Shown here: piece by piece, positions 43,774-51,430 of the stretch
How positions within the stretch are numbered: position 1 is the stretch's first letter
Layout: every line of letters begins with the position of its first letter
Origin: Gammaproteobacteria bacterium
GTDB lineage: Bacteria > Pseudomonadota > Gammaproteobacteria > Steroidobacterales > Steroidobacteraceae
Direction of reading: 5' to 3'
Assembly (NCBI GenBank): GCA_028293765.1
Contig: JAQGOG010000067.1
Span: 1-64,000 of the forward strand
DNA: 64,000 nt
Translations under genes and position numbers: made by a program
The notes under the pieces: model-generated
What the model was told of the DNA's origin: nothing
Database searches by the model: none
Seen by the model: the letters and a program-made list of their open reading frames with translations, nothing else

Positions 43774-45843
43774 CTAAAGCAGCGGTACGAGCAGCAACGC
43801 GACGATGTTGATGATCTTGATGAGCGGGTTGATGGCCGGGCCCGCCGTGTCCTTATAGGGGTCGCCAACGGTGTCGCCGGTCACGGCCGCCTTGTGCGCG
43901 TCCGAGCCCTTGCCGCCGAAGTTACCCTCTTCGATGTACTTCTTAGCGTTATCCCACGCTCCGCCGCCGGTGGTCATCGAGATCGCGACGAACAGTCCCG
44001 TGACAATCGTGCCGATCAGCAGGCCGCCGAGCGCCTTGATGCCCGAACCCGGCCCCATGGCGATATTCAGGGCGAACACGAGCACGATGGGTACGAGAAT
44101 GGGCAGCAGCGAAGGAATGATCATCTCGCGGATGGCGGCCTTCGTCAGCAGGTCCACCGCCCGGGAGTAATCCGGCTTCGCCGTGCCTTCCATGATCCCC
44201 TTGATCTCGCGGAACTGGCGGCGTACCTCGACCACCACGGAGCCCGCGGCGCGGCCCACGGCCTCCATCGCCATGGCGCCGAAGAGATAGGGCACGAGAC
44301 CGCCGATGAAGAGGCCGATGATCACGGCCGGATCGGAGAGCGAGAACTCCACGAGCTTGCCGACTGCCTCCAGGTTATGAGTGTAGTCGGCAAACAGGAC
44401 GAGCGCGGCGAGACCGGCGGAGCCGATCGCGTAGCCTTTGGTGACCGCCTTGGTCGTGTTGCCGACAGCGTCCAGAGGGTCGGTAACGTCGCGGACACTT
44501 TTCGGGAGGCCGGCCATCTCGGCGATACCACCAGCGTTATCCGTGATCGGGCCGTAGGCATCCAACGCCACGATCATGCCCGTCATCGAGAGCATTGCAG
44601 TTGCGGCCGTCGCAATGCCGTACAGGCCGATGCCGTGCATCTGGCCGAGCTCGTAAGCGCCCCAGATTGCAATACACACGGCGAGCACCGGCAAGGCCGT
44701 GGACTTCATCGACACGCCCAATCCGGCGATCATGTTCGTGGCATGCCCGGTCTGTGATGCCGCGGCGATTTTACGTACCGGGCCATACTCGGTCGCCGTG
44801 TAGTACTCGGTAATGAGGATCATCGCCGCCGTGAGGCCGAGGCCCACCAGTGTGCAGCCGTACAGAGCGCCCGCCTGTGTCGGCATGAGCTGGTGGGTGA
44901 TGAAGTAGAAGGCGACGGCCGATACGATTCCCGAGACGATCACGCCCTTGTAGAGCGCGTTCATGATCTTGCCGCCTTCGCTGGCCTTCACGAAGAACGT
45001 GCCGATGATCGAGGAGACGATCGATGCCGAGCCGAGTGCGAGGGGATAGATTACGGCGTTGAGCGCCGCGGCTTCACCCGCATTTGCAAAAAGCAAACCC
45101 CCCAGGACCATGGTTGCCACAAGGGTCACGGCGTAGGTCTCGAAGAGGTCAGCCGCCATGCCCGCGCAATCGCCGACGTTGTCGCCTACGTTGTCCGCGA
45201 TCACCGCTGGATTACGCGGGTCATCTTCCGGAATTCCCGCTTCGACCTTACCGACGAGGTCCGCGCCAACGTCGGCGCCCTTCGTGAAGATGCCGCCGCC
45301 CAAACGCGCGAAGATCGAGATGAGCGAGCCACCGAACGCAAGGCCGACGAGCGCATGGAGCGCGCCTTCTTCACCGATGGACGGGAACTGCCGCAACACT
45401 GCGAAGTAACCGGCGACACCGATGAGGCCGAGGCCGACTACGAGCATTCCGGTGATCGCCCCGCCGCGGAATGCAACCTGGAGCGCGGCGTTCACGCCGT
45501 GCGTTGCCGCTTGAGCTGTGCGTACATTCGCGCGCACGGAGATGTTCATCCCGATGTAGCCGGTAAGACCCGACAGGATGGCCCCGATGGCGAAGCCGAC
45601 AGCTGTCGGCCAGCCGATGGGGGAGAAGCCGAGAGCGGCAAACAACACGATGCCGACGATCAGGATCGTGGAGTACTGGCGATTGAGATAAGCCTGCGCG
45701 CCGGCCTGAATGGCCGCCGCGATCTCCTGCATGCGGGCATTGCCCGCGGGCAGACGAAGAATCGACATCATCGAGAATATGCCGTAGAGAACGGCGAGAA
45801 CACCGGCAGCGATCGCGAGCCACAGCCACGTGGTGGGATCCAT
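43774..45843 (-). CDS. hppA: Membrane-bound proton-pumping pyrophosphatase
   Basis: A 689-residue integral membrane enzyme, about 16 TM helices, that couples PPi hydrolysis to H+ export. Substrate motifs: [20 protein letters not shown] and [19 protein letters not shown] (about 182-236), plus the C-terminal KKYIEEG and [20 protein letters not shown]. Lys465 in [10 protein letters not shown] is the residue that marks K+-independent H+-PPases (Ala in K+-dependent forms). It lies near pfp, so PPi economy looks linked to glycolysis. A terminator follows the gene. Confidence 0.96.
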
Positions 45844-46141
45844 CAGCGAACCTCCCTCAACCAGCCTGAGTTAAAAAATTTTAGTTCGTTGGCGGGCTCG
45901 AACGACGGACATCACGGTCGTCCGACCGCTGAAAAGGCGGCGGACTATAACACGATGAAGAACGCCGCTCATGCGCAGCCCTGGGGCCCATAAGTGGGGC
46001 GGCGTCGCCCGGAGCCCGTAAGCTGGGAGCGCGTAGCCCGGGACGACCGCGCCCGCGGTGCGATGTTCGTCCGATTGAGCCAAACAGGCTCCGCACCCGG
46101 AGTTCATTACACGCCCCCTTCGTACCGCCTCGCCCGAGACG
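45844..46141. other. Intergenic region hppA / pfp
   Basis: A 298-bp gap between two minus-strand genes. It holds the leader of hppA, with GGAGG about 6 nt upstream of the start, and a pair of imperfect 30-bp direct repeats at 45983-46042. No ORF is supported. Confidence 0.5.
45983..46042. repeat. Two imperfect 30-bp direct repeats
   Basis: Unit 1 begins at GGGGCCCATAAGTGGGG (45983) and unit 2 at GGAGCCCGTAAGCTGGGAG (46011). Both continue into GCG[C/G]GT[A/C]GCCCGG. They differ at several positions and by a short indel. Confidence 0.6.
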
Positions 46142-47413
46142 CTAGATTGTGAAATCGCTCTTTACTTTCTTGCGCACCGCCACACCCTTGATCTGCACGT
46201 AGTCCGGCAGTCCGTCCTTGTAGGGCGGATAGGCTTCGCCGGCGATCAACGGTTGCAGATAGCGGCGGCACGCGGCAGTGATACCGAAGCCATCTTCGGT
46301 GATGTATTCGCGCGGTACCTTCTTTTCTTTGTTCGCGACTTCCGCGAGCGGCACGTGGCCGATGACCCACTTGTACGGTTTCGAGGCCTTGCGGACGATG
46401 GTCGGCATCACGGCGTTGACGCCTTTCACGGCGAGCTCGACGGCTGCTTTGCCCACGGCGTAGGCCTGATCGGAGTCAACTTTGGATGCGATGTGACGGG
46501 CGGAGCGCTGCAGGTAATCCGCCACGGCCCAGTGATACTTGTAGCCGTGCGCCTCCCGGATCATGTTGGCGACCACGGGCGCGACACCGCCAAGTTGTGT
46601 ATGTCCGAAAGCGTCTTTCGTCCCCGCGTCGGCCAGAAATTTCCCGTCTGCGGTTGCGGCGCCTTCGGAAACGACGATGACGCAGTAACCGCAGTCCGCG
46701 ACGGACTGCTTCACTTTGTCGAGGAACTTCTGTTGTTCAAACGGAATTTCCGGGAAGAGAATGATATGCGGAGCTTCGTTCGGCCTGGTGCCCGCGAGCC
46801 CCCCCGCAGCGGCAATCCAACCTGCGTGGCGTCCCATGACCTCGAATACGAAGACTTTCGTCGATGTGCGCGCCATCGAGGCGACGTCGAGCGCCGCTTC
46901 GCGAGTGGACACCGCTACGTACTTCGCCACGGAACCGAAACCTGGGCAGCAGTCAGTGTGCGGTAGATCGTTGTCGACCGTCTTCGGCACACCAACGCAG
47001 GTGATGGGGTAGCCGAGAGACTCGCCGATCTGCGAGACCTTCAGCGCGGTGTCCATCGAATCGTTGCCGCCGTTATAGAAAAAATAGCCGATCTCGTGAG
47101 CGCGGAATACTTCGATCAGGCGCTCGTACTCGGCACGGTTCTGCTCGAGTCCCTTGAGCTTGAAGCGCGCCGAGCCGAAAGCGCCGGCCGGCGTGTGGCG
47201 GAGGCCGCGGATGGTAGCAGTGCTCTCGCGGCTAACATCGATGAGGTCCTCCGTGAGAGCACCGATGATGCCGTGGCGTCCCGCGTAGACCTTCCCGATA
47301 TATTTCGACTGCTTCATCGCGGTCTCGATGACCCCGCACGCCGAAGCATTGATGACGGCGGACACTCCGCCCGACTGGGCATAGAACGCGTTCTTCTTGA
47401 CGGTCTTCTTCAT
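46142..47413 (-). CDS. pfp: Pyrophosphate-dependent 6-phosphofructokinase
   Basis: A 423-residue reversible enzyme that phosphorylates fructose 6-phosphate with PPi. GGNDSMDT (115-122) and PKTVDNDL with Lys144 mark the PPi-dependent class; ATP-dependent enzymes carry Gly at both discriminating sites. MGRHAGWIAA forms part of the sugar-phosphate site. The start is ATG 47413 (MKKTVKKNAFYAQSGG). It lies 298 bp upstream of hppA on the same strand and divergent from adk. Co-location of pfp and hppA is known in methanotrophs. Confidence 0.94.
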   Translation of the reverse strand: MKKTVKKNAFYAQSGGVSAVINASACGVIETAMKQSKYIGKVYAGRHGIIGALTEDLIDVSRESTATIRGLRHTPAGAFGSARFKLKGLEQNRAEYERLIEVFRAHEIGYFFYNGGNDSMDTALKVSQIGESLGYPITCVGVPKTVDNDLPHTDCCPGFGSVAKYVAVSTREAALDVASMARTSTKVFVFEVMGRHAGWIAAAGGLAGTRPNEAPHIILFPEIPFEQQKFLDKVKQSVADCGYCVIVVSEGAATADGKFLADAGTKDAFGHTQLGGVAPVVANMIREAHGYKYHWAVADYLQRSARHIASKVDSDQAYAVGKAAVELAVKGVNAVMPTIVRKASKPYKWVIGHVPLAEVANKEKKVPREYITEDGFGITAACRRYLQPLIAGEAYPPYKDGLPDYVQIKGVAVRKKVKSDFTI

Positions 47414-47701
47414 GGTGTTGGCGGCCGGACAATTTGTGGCGGGCAAGAATAGCGCAGCCGATGCACCTTGCGCATATTGCGGACCGGCCTAGGGGACCGC
47501 GCACGACTCGGCCGGCCCGGCAATGGACGTGCGGGGCAAACTGCACACCGGCGCCTTATGAGCCCCGCCCGGGATCGTGCGCGCCTGCAGCGGCTGCTCG
47601 CGTGAAGGCGACCGTCAGGCAGTCAGATGCCGTTTGACCTCTTATGGGGCGGCCGGTAACGTGGCGAGCCTTTCGCGGCCACGGGATCGGTCTCTTAAAA
47701 C
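47414..47701. other. Divergent intergenic region pfp / adk
   Basis: A 288-bp GC-rich gap that must hold the promoters of pfp (left) and adk (right). A candidate adk promoter is listed separately. I see no RNA gene or ORF. Confidence 0.5.
47634..47662 (+). promoter_or_regulatory. Possible sigma70 promoter of adk
   Basis: TTGACC (47634-47639), a 17-bp spacer, then TAACGT (47657-47662), ending 39 bp before the adk ATG. The -35 is good and the spacing is optimal, but the -10 keeps only the key T, A and T positions. Confidence 0.4.
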
Positions 47702-48775
47702 ATGCGCATCGTTCTATTGGGCGCGCCCGGCTCCGGCAAGGGCACCCAGTCTCAGCGGCTCGTCGAGCGGCACGGTATCCCCCAGATATCCACGGGAGAT
47801 TTGCTGCGCGCGGCGGTCACCAATGGCACCGATCTTGGGCTCAAGGCCAAGGAAGCCATGGATTCGGGCCGGCTGGTCGACGACGACATCGTGCTTGGGA
47901 TGATTCGCGAGCGGCTGAGCGAGCCCGACGCCCAGCGGGGCTTCATCCTCGACGGCTTTCCACGCAACCTCGCCCAGGCGCGGGCGCTCGATACCCTTCT
48001 CAGCGAGCTGGGAAAGCCGCTGGATGCCGTTGTACAGATGGATGTGGATTACGGTGAGCTTACGCGTCGGATATCCGGACGACGTACCTGCGCCGATTGC
48101 GGCCGAGTATTCAATCTCCTCACGTGCCCACCGGGGCAGGCCGAGAAGGACACCTGCCCGAAGACTGGCGGCCCGCATCGCCTTTTCCAGCGTCCGGACG
48201 ACAACGAAGCGACGGTGGCGGAGCGTCTCAAGGTGTATGACGAGAAGACGAAGCCGCTGATCGAATTTTACAGAACGCAGGGCGCCCTGCGCTCGATCGA
48301 CGCCGAGGGAGAGGTCGACAAGGTGACCGGGCGGCTGGAAGAAGCCCTCAAGTCGCCCCCGGGCTCTACAGCGCCAACCACGAAGCCAAAGCCAGCAGCG
48401 CGCCAGCCGACGCGCAAGCCCGAGCCGAAAGTCGCAGCGAATTCGAAGGGCGAAGGCGCAGCGAAGGGTAAAGGCAAAGACAACGCGGACGGCAAGAGCG
48501 GGGCGAAGCCCAAGACCCAACGCGCGGCCAAGTCAAACCCCGTTGCCGCCAAACGAGCACCTGGCAAGGCCGCTGGAACGGCAAAGCGCGCGCCCGCGAA
48601 GACTCGCAGCCCGAAGAAATCCCCCTCCCGTCAGGGCGGGACCGCGCGGGTCGGCGCCGCTAAAAAGAGCGGCACGTGGAAAAGTGCGGCGAACCAGCTT
48701 GCAAAGAAAAAGTCTGGCAAGAAAGCCGCTGGGCAGAAGGCTCCGGGAAAGAAAAAGGCCGGCAAGAAACGCTAA
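47702..48775 (+). CDS. adk: Adenylate kinase with lysine-rich C-terminal tail
   Basis: A 357-residue protein; usual bacterial adenylate kinases are about 215. Residues 1-218 are a normal core: P-loop GAPGSGKGTQ (7-16), STGDLLRAAV (AMP site), DGFPRNLAQA, a long LID (126-165) and the QRPDDNEATVAERL segment. It equilibrates ATP+AMP with 2 ADP. LID cysteines at 130, 133, 142 and 152 with Thr155 give only part of the usual four-Cys zinc site. Residues 219-357 are low-complexity, about a quarter Lys with Ala/Pro/Gly (AAKKSG, KKSGKKAAGQ), like histone H1 or AlgP. Same frame, no stop or frameshift between. Confidence 0.95.
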   Translation: MRIVLLGAPGSGKGTQSQRLVERHGIPQISTGDLLRAAVTNGTDLGLKAKEAMDSGRLVDDDIVLGMIRERLSEPDAQRGFILDGFPRNLAQARALDTLLSELGKPLDAVVQMDVDYGELTRRISGRRTCADCGRVFNLLTCPPGQAEKDTCPKTGGPHRLFQRPDDNEATVAERLKVYDEKTKPLIEFYRTQGALRSIDAEGEVDKVTGRLEEALKSPPGSTAPTTKPKPAARQPTRKPEPKVAANSKGEGAAKGKGKDNADGKSGAKPKTQRAAKSNPVAAKRAPGKAAGTAKRAPAKTRSPKKSPSRQGGTARVGAAKKSGTWKSAANQLAKKKSGKKAAGQKAPGKKKAGKKR

Positions 48776-48825
48776 CGTGCCGTCTCACGCGCCGGCGACG
48801 CCAAATTCACCAACGCGGGGGCGCG

Positions 48826-48976
48826 GCGACAGCGGGCCAGGGCGACAATACGATGCCAGCGACAGTGGCCCGGCACGACAACGGGCAGCAGGGCTTCTAA
48901 CTGGGCGCGGGTATCGGGATGGCGATGCTGGCGACCGTGGCCCCCGGCGCGACAACGCGGGGCCCCGGCTTCTAGC
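48826..48976. repeat. Imperfect tandem repeats between adk and a kinase gene
   Basis: The unit GATGC[C/T][A/G]GCGAC[A/C]GTGGCCC...CGACAACG...GGCTTCTA occurs at 48852-48901 and 48924-48976; a shorter related segment (GCGACAGCGGGCC) precedes at 48831. The last unit includes the stop codon (48972-48974) of the minus-strand kinase gene. Confidence 0.6.
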
Positions 48977-50234
48977 TCAGCAGGGGCTCCGGGAGGGCGA
49001 TGCTCGCTTCGCGGCCGGCCAGGCGAGCGACCACCTTCACCAGCTCATCGGGTTCGACGGGCTTCGAGAGATGCATCTGGAATCCGGCCTCGCGAGCGCG
49101 CGCGGCGTCCTCCGGCCGAGAGTATGCGGTCAGCGCCGCCGCCGGCAGATCTTCCGGGCTGGTCGTCGAACGCACGGCCCGGATCAGCTCATAGCCGTCG
49201 CGGCCGGGCATGCTCACGTCCGAGATCAGCACATGGGGATTGAAGGCGCCGAGGGTCGCAAGCGCGGCTTCGACCGATGGCGCGGCCGCCACCTGCGCCT
49301 GGCTGTCGCCGAGTACCCGCCTGAGCAGATCCAAGGTGTCCGGCTCGTCATCCACGACGAGCACGCGTAAGCCGGTCAAGTTCACCTGGTAACCGTGTAT
49401 TTCCGCGGCTGGACCGTGCTCCTGCGGTTCGTCTTCTGCGGCGACTCCATTTCGATTGTCCAGCTCATCGCGTGGGGCGACCCGAGGCAGAAGGACCGTG
49501 AAAGTGGCGCCATGATTCAAGCCGGCGCTGGTCGCGGCGACCGTCCCACCGTGCAGTTCCACGAGCCGCTTCGCAAGCGAAAGCCCCAGCCCCAGGCCCG
49601 AGTAGCGATGCTCGTCCGGCGCCTCGGCGCGCCAGAAGCGGTCGAATACGTACGGGAGGAGTTCGTTGGCGATCCCGGCGCCGGTATCGCTGACGGCGAT
49701 CTGGCACTGGCCGCCTGCGGTCCGTACCGTGACTTTCGCCCGGCCGCCACGCGGCGTGAACTTGATCGCGTTGCTGAGCAGATGCCAGACAACCTGTTGA
49801 AGTCGTTGCGGATCGCCGAAAACGAGGCACTCCGGCGTCGCCAGATGCTTTTCGAGGATGACGCCCTTGCTGCCGGCTGACGGCTGCAGGATATCGAGCG
49901 CCGCTTCGACGATTTCGCAGATGTCCGTCTCTTCGGGATCCACGCGGATCTTGCCGGTCGAGACGGCGCTCAGGTCGAGCAGATCATCGACGATGTGTGC
50001 CAGCAGCCGCGCGTTGCGCGCTATGGTCTGGCCACCGGACTGCGTTTCTTCGACTCCGAGGCGGCCCAGCTCCATGAGCCGGGACCAGCCCAGAATGGCG
50101 TTGAGGGGCGCGCGCAGCTCGTGACCGAGGGCTTCCAGGAATTCATCCTTCAGCCTTCCGCTGCGCTCGGCTTCAATACGTGCGGTGCGCTCGCTGGCGA
50201 GCAGGGCACGCAGCTGCTGTAGGGGTTCATCCAT
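48972..50234 (-). CDS. Hybrid sensor histidine kinase with C-terminal receiver
   Basis: A 420-residue protein. A short coiled-coil N-terminus (about 1-30) leads into the HisKA domain with H38 in EFLEALGHELRAPLNAILGW. HATPase follows (about 140-265: SNAIKFTP, VSDTGAGI, GLGLGLSLAKRLVELHGG), then a linker and a receiver domain (about 295-410) with VDDEPDT, LISDVSMPGRDG (phospho-Asp) and LSKPVEP. No TM or PAS input domain, so it is probably cytoplasmic and driven by a partner. ATG 50234 was chosen over an upstream TTG. It is near an orphan receiver protein 5 kb away. Confidence 0.9.
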   Translation of the reverse strand: MDEPLQQLRALLASERTARIEAERSGRLKDEFLEALGHELRAPLNAILGWSRLMELGRLGVEETQSGGQTIARNARLLAHIVDDLLDLSAVSTGKIRVDPEETDICEIVEAALDILQPSAGSKGVILEKHLATPECLVFGDPQRLQQVVWHLLSNAIKFTPRGGRAKVTVRTAGGQCQIAVSDTGAGIANELLPYVFDRFWRAEAPDEHRYSGLGLGLSLAKRLVELHGGTVAATSAGLNHGATFTVLLPRVAPRDELDNRNGVAAEDEPQEHGPAAEIHGYQVNLTGLRVLVVDDEPDTLDLLRRVLGDSQAQVAAAPSVEAALATLGAFNPHVLISDVSMPGRDGYELIRAVRSTTSPEDLPAAALTAYSRPEDAARAREAGFQMHLSKPVEPDELVKVVARLAGREASIALPEPLLS

Positions 50235-50279
50235 AACGCCCAACGATAGCAAGCGCGGTGCCCCCGGGATACCCGAGTT

Positions 50280-51362
50280 TCAAAGCGCCGCCAACATCTG
50301 CTCGCCGACGACGCCGCGCCGCCAGCCCCGCAGCACGGCGACGTCCTGCCGGCCGTCCGCGAGTTGCTCGAGATCGCGCCGGGTCGCCAGGATCTCGGGG
50401 CTCAGGTTCAGATCGGCGGCGATCGACTGGTTGAGCACACCTAGTTTTTTCACCAGGGCGGTCTTCAGGGGATCGGGCCGTTGCCGTCCCTGGATGGCCG
50501 GGGCCGGATCGGCGATTTCCGCCGCGCGCACGCACGCGAGCAAATCTTCGCTGCAATGCTTCACGACGCCGGCCGGCAGTTCTGCCATCGCAGCCAGCGC
50601 TTCGACCGAGCGAGGCACCTGCAGAACGATCTCACGCAATGCCGTGTCATCGAGAATCCAGCCTCGCGGGCGGTTGCGCTCGATAGCGCGGCGCTCGCGC
50701 CAGGCCGCAAGCTCGCGCGCAAGGCGGATGCGCGCCTCATCGAGGCCGCGCAGTCCCTTTACGCGCAGCCATGCCTGCTCCGGCTCTGTCGTGAAGCTGC
50801 GGGTGTCGTCCAATGCGGCGAGCTCCTCGGCCAGCCACGTGAGTCGACCTAGCTTTTGCAGCTGCTCCTCCAGCAGAGATTTGAGGGGCAACAGATAGCG
50901 CACGTCATCCAGTGCGTACTCGATCTGCTCGGGCGACAGCGGCCGGCGGGACCAGTCCGTGCGCGTGTGAGTTTTCGCCAGCTCATGTCCGATCAACCGG
51001 CGGACGAGCTCGGCATAACCGACCTGTGCGGGCAGGCCGGTGAGCGCGGCGGCGATCTGCGTATCAAACACCGGCCGCACCAGGCCGGCGACGGGAAACA
51101 GCACCTCGATGTCCTGGCGAGAGGCGTGCATGACCTTGACGATTCCCGGCGCCGTGAGCGCACGAGCGATCGGCGTGAGATCGGGGAGGGCGATGGGGTC
51201 GACGCATGTGGCGTCGCTATCGGACGACACCTGCACGAGGCAGAGCTCGGCGCGATAGGTGCGCTCCCGCAGGAACTCGGTGTCGAGGCCTATGCCCTCG
51301 AGCGTGTCGAGACGCGTGCCAAGCTCGGCAAGGGCTTGGGATGTCGTGACTATGGGCTGCAA
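50280..51362 (-). CDS. rnd: Ribonuclease D
   Basis: A 360-residue 3'-5' exoribonuclease that trims tRNA precursors. DEDD motifs: GIGLDTEFLRERTY (Exo I), VMHASRQDIEVLF (Exo II) and EYALDDVRYLLPL (Exo III). Two C-terminal HRDC-type helical regions follow (about 205-360). The start is uncertain: TTG 51362 matches the family's short N-terminus, while GTG 51398 would add 12 residues. It is divergent from the membrane-protein gene at 51431. Confidence 0.92.
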   Translation of the reverse strand: MQPIVTTSQALAELGTRLDTLEGIGLDTEFLRERTYRAELCLVQVSSDSDATCVDPIALPDLTPIARALTAPGIVKVMHASRQDIEVLFPVAGLVRPVFDTQIAAALTGLPAQVGYAELVRRLIGHELAKTHTRTDWSRRPLSPEQIEYALDDVRYLLPLKSLLEEQLQKLGRLTWLAEELAALDDTRSFTTEPEQAWLRVKGLRGLDEARIRLARELAAWRERRAIERNRPRGWILDDTALREIVLQVPRSVEALAAMAELPAGVVKHCSEDLLACVRAAEIADPAPAIQGRQRPDPLKTALVKKLGVLNQSIAADLNLSPEILATRRDLEQLADGRQDVAVLRGWRRGVVGEQMLAAL

Positions 51363-51430
51363 CGGGTTTGATGATGACCTGTACAATCGGGCGCGCACAT
51401 TATGCGAGTCGAGCGACAGTACCGAAAGCC

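Follow-up and report, generated by a model that had tools for sequence, protein, structure and literature searches.

In the window, the 64,000-nucleotide stretch of gammaproteobacterial DNA analysed here, adk encodes an adenylate kinase (Adk) that continues in frame into a long, lysine-rich C-terminal tail. We put at roughly 60% the probability that this polycationic tail, which is predicted to be disordered, has been selected as a low-specificity electrostatic tether holding Adk on a polyanion inside the cell, most probably nucleic acid. Carrying dozens of positive charges, the tail would be expected to bind polyanions and to discriminate little among them, the most likely ligand being nucleoid DNA or RNA and ribosomes, with polyphosphate (polyP) as a possible extra, and an enzyme held at such a surface would balance ATP, ADP and AMP there.

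The open reading frame at 47702-48775 on the forward strand begins with an ATG at 47702, ends with a TAA and encodes 357 amino acids (Table 1). It is a complete adenylate kinase, and ATP:AMP phosphotransfer is predicted from its sequence. Pfam ADK matches residues 5-194 (182 bits, cut-off 26.8) and ADK_lid residues 127-166 (30.4 bits, cut-off 26.6), while the NCBIfam model PRK00279.1-2 spans residues 1-217 (275.6 bits, cut-off 251). In a 28-row alignment of cores the residues G7, P9, G10, G12, K13, G14 and T15 are invariant, as are R36, R88, R123, R164 and R175; the P-loop and the conserved Arg and Asp positions of the core are the expected catalytic sites. The frame is the single Pfam ADK match in its own genome. 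AlphaFold2 gives the core blocks pLDDT values of 87-96, and net charge is -3 in the core and +38 in the tail. The in-frame fusion of a complete Adk core with a long tail, proposed in the first-pass annotation, is upheld, with Pfam and NCBIfam covering the core and an extension of 141 amino acids following it.

Table 1. Features of the adk locus in the window; the first residues of the tail overlap the end of the core by definition, residue 217 being common to both.
Feature	Coordinates	Strand	Basis and remarks
hppA, membrane H+-translocating pyrophosphatase	43774..45843	-	Pfam H_PPase; conserved neighbourhood
pfp-like phosphofructokinase, ORF as listed	46142..47446	-	Pfam PFK; divergent neighbour of adk
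Adenylate kinase core, residues 1-217	47702..48352	+	Pfam, NCBIfam, 28-row alignment, AlphaFold2
Polycationic tail, residues 217-357	48350..48772	+	Composition; no Pfam family; predicted disorder
TAA stop after tail	48773..48775	+	Direct reading of sequence
Hybrid histidine kinase, between adk and rnd	48972..50252	-	Pfam HisKA, HATPase_c, Response_reg
rnd (ribonuclease D-like), convergent with adk	50280..51398	-	Pfam DNA_pol_A_exo1, HRDC

The tail contains 33 Lys, 9 Arg, 29 Ala, 17 Gly and 15 Pro, with two Asp and two Glu. Lysine thus makes up 23% of its residues, which bears out the earlier estimate of about a quarter, and Lys plus Arg 30%. This last fraction (0.298) is the lowest among 49 family tails, in a tail with four acidic residues, and for that reason the window tail may be under weaker selection than the tails of its relatives. 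The likeness to histone H1 and AlgP tails that had been suggested also stands in general character, the tail being long, Lys/Ala/Pro-rich and predicted to be intrinsically disordered (its blocks were modelled by AlphaFold2 at pLDDT 45-56, without secondary structure). Pfam holds no family that matches the tail, and the sole NCBIfam match to it, the histone-H1-like model NF038053, reaches 14.4 bits (E 0.034) against a cut-off of 80. Reading of the translation revealed no KPAA array in the window tail; nine Lys fall within 20 residues, and the longest Lys run is three. DNA repeat expansion finds little support in the window tail, where TRF at score 30 returned one 29-base array of 2.5 copies near the tail start and no further repeats.

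Within a 319 kb sample of the same genome (the window and 20 further contig stretches, together about 5% of the genome), no frame but adk has a comparable segment, and searching the own genome with the tail by itself gave three further matches, all weak (E 0.3 to 2.7). Across family loci totalling 1.10 Mb, comparable segments occur in 48 adk frames and in 10 frames that are not adk; several of these ten sit at tailed adk loci and look like shifted frames of tails.

The Adk query matched 181 of 200 family genomes, and our family counts use 148 of the 181, among the matches listed, leaving out loci cut by a contig end or with an incomplete core. A basic tail is present in 45 of the 148 and absent from 103, at one orthologous pfp/adk/rnd locus, and as most family members do without it the tail is not needed for catalysis. 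Tail lengths are bimodal, at 34 and then 55-227 aa in tailed genomes and 0-16 aa in tailless ones except for G101. In that genome, counted as tailless, the adk frame (L135) extends 226 aa into antisense rnd and gains no Lys, a stop-loss extension. Eleven of the 33 rows from the window's own genus are tailed, and the closest relative (L032) has a core that is 92% identical and a tail of 131 aa. The named relatives are metagenome-derived, several of them labelled Steroidobacteraceae.

A tree of 158 cores, 49 of them from tailed proteins, was built without tail residues from the 148 genomes together with the other G042 copy and nine named loci. It requires at least 12 changes of tail state, 5 of which well-supported branches make unavoidable, whereas shuffled labels need 42 on average, and whole clades retain the tail although its sequence gets remade. 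The two adk copies of G042 (L181 and L231) have cores that are 97% identical and tails that are 54% identical and differ in length, reflecting either rapid turnover of the tail or the binning of two strains into one genome.

Beyond the family, a class-level search matched 343 of 369 genomes. Among the 116 class places at the top of the matches listed, the open frame is at least 290 aa in 72 and below 260 aa in 37. Sixty loci were picked from those 72 long frames, and 58 of the 60, a proportion that is not a prevalence, have Lys-rich tails of 89-318 aa with net charges of +19 to +112. L300 is tailless, L329 failed the tail filter owing to a masked run, yet is tailed in the enlarged tree, and L293 and L320 extend beyond the ends of their contigs, so that their tails may be longer. 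The class search counted one Adk match only in 32 of the 58 tailed genomes; the tailed enzyme is therefore often the sole Adk. Acidic residues are commoner in these class tails than in those of the family (D+E mean 4.7%, maximum 13%), and many of the class tails show obvious AKKK repeats. With the 60 class cores added, the tree requires 12 changes (6 forced), which fits an old tail with losses on a tree that covers only long-frame loci from the class.

At the level of the phylum, 10 of 398 genomes scored above the cut-off of PRK13808 (NF010381; 335 positions), which we take to be a Bradyrhizobium-lineage model with Bradyrhizobium-like matches, and all ten have Lys/Ala-rich tails on a shorter Adk core. 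Like the window Adk, the PRK13808 enzyme consists of a core followed by a Lys/Ala-rich tail, roughly 100 aa in its length, but its core is shorter (about 190 aa) and without the long lid; the window protein scores 212.1 bits against a cut-off of 426 and is not a member. No study of the function of the PRK13808 enzyme came to light. We report these alphaproteobacterial-type Adk tails as independent cases.

The order hppA (-), pfp (-), adk (+), rnd (-), mpl (+) is common to tailed and tailless family loci, within the fetched flanks. The pfp gene, the product of which is presumably pyrophosphate-dependent, adjoins adk in most family loci and lies in the fetched flank of 39 of the 58 tailed class loci. 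Rearrangement as the origin of the tail was rejected on the strength of this neighbourhood, which, as far as the flanks go, is the same with and without a tail. Between the core end and the rnd stop lie a median of 30 nt at 105 tailless loci and of 308.5 nt at 44 tailed ones; this distance tracks tail length (rho 0.82), while the leftover spacing before rnd is similar (medians 14 and 26 nt). Since the spacing grows with tail length and the leftover is alike, the tail represents additional coding DNA. We also rejected readthrough or a separate downstream gene; the query does align past residue 218 through stops in many tailless relatives, but these alignments are spurious, the downstream frames being the antisense of the convergent rnd. 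In the window (43774-51398), hppA and pfp form a pyrophosphate-economy pair divergent from adk. The histidine kinase gene is missing from most family loci.

Long basic chains could also bind acidic lipids or acidic protein surfaces, and the conserved presence of pfp and hppA beside adk is what a tail acting on the enzyme itself, or on a protein or membrane partner, might lead one to expect, whether it served catalysis, solubility, assembly or docking near the H+-pyrophosphatase on the acidic membrane. We think such a role quite unlikely. The tailless relatives keep the same neighbourhood, the modelled tail has no predicted structure (though fuzzy contacts would still be possible), and the tailed Adks of alphaproteobacterial type carry their tails on a shorter core.

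Selection on the tail appears to act on its charge. Across the 49 family tails, the coding frame has 24.5% K, 40.5% K+R, 0.7% D+E and zero stops, while the other two forward frames have 3.9% and 2.6% K with 81 and 70 stops; K in the family cores is 3.1%. Openness of the tail frame proves little by itself, since one reverse frame has only 7 stops. Over 107 tails, which are mutually related so that nominal p values overstate, K+R is 0.393 +/- 0.068 with no GC3 trend (rho -0.04), although core GC3 ranges from 0.24 to 0.98, and K/(K+R) declines with GC3 (rho -0.59, n = 107, counting both L073 and L299, apparently one contig as both are 58726 bases).

Similar indications, tempered by high dS and by uncertain pairwise alignment of the tails, come from 12 hand-picked sister pairs. 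In 11 of the 12, all except L161/L164, dN is higher for the tail than for the core, and tail dN/dS is 0.06-0.39. Tail differences of any kind between K/R and D/E number three in the 12 pairs, two of them from the window's own pair. A K-R and a K-E difference each need one A-G change, and the one-base differences of these two kinds stand at 10:0 in the tails (p 0.002), against 3 and 2 in the cores. A charge density that holds steady as length and sequence drift, together with this ratio, argues against neutral repeat junk.

The wide variation in length and sequence, the at least 12 state changes on the tree, the AKKK units of many class tails and the position of the window tail as the least basic of the 49 could nonetheless be accommodated by a mostly neutral tail, i.e., low-complexity DNA whose expansion and contraction after a housekeeping gene are tolerated. 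We hold this to be very doubtful, given a stop-free basic coding frame set against the many stops of the other forward frames, a charge density independent of GC3, the absence of one-base K-E differences, a dN/dS below 0.4 in all 12 pairs and the near lack of repeat structure in the window tail. The unconstrained repeat expansion that the first-pass annotation had allowed for is likewise disfavoured by the recurrence of tails, their steady charge density, their few acidic residues and the want of one-base K-E changes. Its proposal that a functional tail should recur in relatives with conserved length and Lys content held in part: composition is kept, whereas sequence differs a good deal, length runs from 34 to 318 aa and 103 of the 148 family genomes have no tail.

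The tether reading has a precedent in AlgP of P. aeruginosa, the KPAA-tailed protein which, according to the passages of the study on which we draw, binds DNA and associates with polyP granules, the spacing of which needs the AlgP tail; adenylate kinase does not figure in those passages (PMC9239181). AlgP and PhaF of Pseudomonas share with the window Adk a long, disordered, Lys/Ala/Pro-rich C-terminal tail, disorder being predicted in the latter, but their N-terminal parts are non-enzymes and their tails are regular KPAA repeats, of a kind that the window tail lacks. Actinobacterial topoisomerase I, as described in part of a further study, resembles the window Adk as an enzyme with a Lys-rich C-terminal extension, and its Lys repeats raise processivity on DNA (PMC7398561); the topoisomerase core, however, already acts on DNA, and the Adk core does not. 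EngA and SrmB of P. aeruginosa, in the relevant passages, bind polyP non-covalently through 9 Lys in 20 residues, including four consecutive (PMC12077175). The window tail has the same C-terminal Lys density, but the EngA and SrmB stretches are short, contain KKKK and sit on other core enzymes, while the window tail has at most three Lys in a row. Lys-rich regions are linked to nucleic-acid binding in a survey of prokaryotic low-complexity regions, in the passages of which adenylate kinase goes unmentioned (PMC6821194).

These likenesses to AlgP and to polyP-binding proteins, together with PPK1 and PPK2 matches in the window's own genome, suit a tether specific to polyP, in which Adk would sit on polyP granules and turn PPK2-made ADP into ATP. 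We regard this as unlikely. Neither PPK1 nor PPK2 was matched in 5 of the 45 tailed genomes (G003, G022, G036, G042 and G151), one of which is listed as 99% complete, or in 9 of the 103 tailless genomes, and on the tree, where only 5 supported independent pairs were available, the tail showed no link to PPK2, to PPK1 or to the presence of either. The window tail is also without a four-Lys run. The PPK-less tailed genomes weaken polyP as the sole ligand and, with no PPK-tail link on the tree, favour nucleic acid or ribosomes, which would be the more general candidates.

The first-pass suggestion that the tail could tether Adk to nucleic acid, ribosomes or polyanions is in keeping with these observations. 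For the tether as such, we infer that the cell produces the tail, that the tail attaches to a polyanion there and that what is gained is the placement of Adk. Counting against it are the 103 tailless genomes among 148 and the unconserved sequence and length of the tail, as well as the low basicity of the window tail and the less purely basic tails of the class.

The Adk core, H1-like tails and one other tailed-Adk lineage with an NCBI model are already known. Our literature search of open-licence papers found no report of an Adk with a Lys-rich tail. More tentatively, with the odds somewhat against it, this may be a large and apparently unreported gammaproteobacterial family of self-localising Adks, in which the enzyme of a pfp-adk divergon carries a polycationic anchor that selection would keep for its charge density alone and that would fix the adenylate balance of the cell at one of its polyanionic bodies, be it nucleoid, polysomes or polyP, an arrangement that would have arisen separately on the alphaproteobacterial-type Adk. 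Adenylate kinase is usually viewed as diffusing freely; if an anchor on it is indeed widespread, many bacteria would set ATP/ADP/AMP equilibration at a chosen surface. Tailed and tailless orthologs at one locus provide a natural comparison for the purpose of the tail, and the tails offer a clear case in which net charge is seemingly what selection acts on, with sequence, length and the Lys:Arg ratio left to drift.

Five class tails (L296, L308, L310, L317 and L318) have in common a P-S/T-L-E-D-L-x-K-K-V-M-A-A-A-like motif between the core and the Lys-rich part, perhaps a small helix or a docking site.
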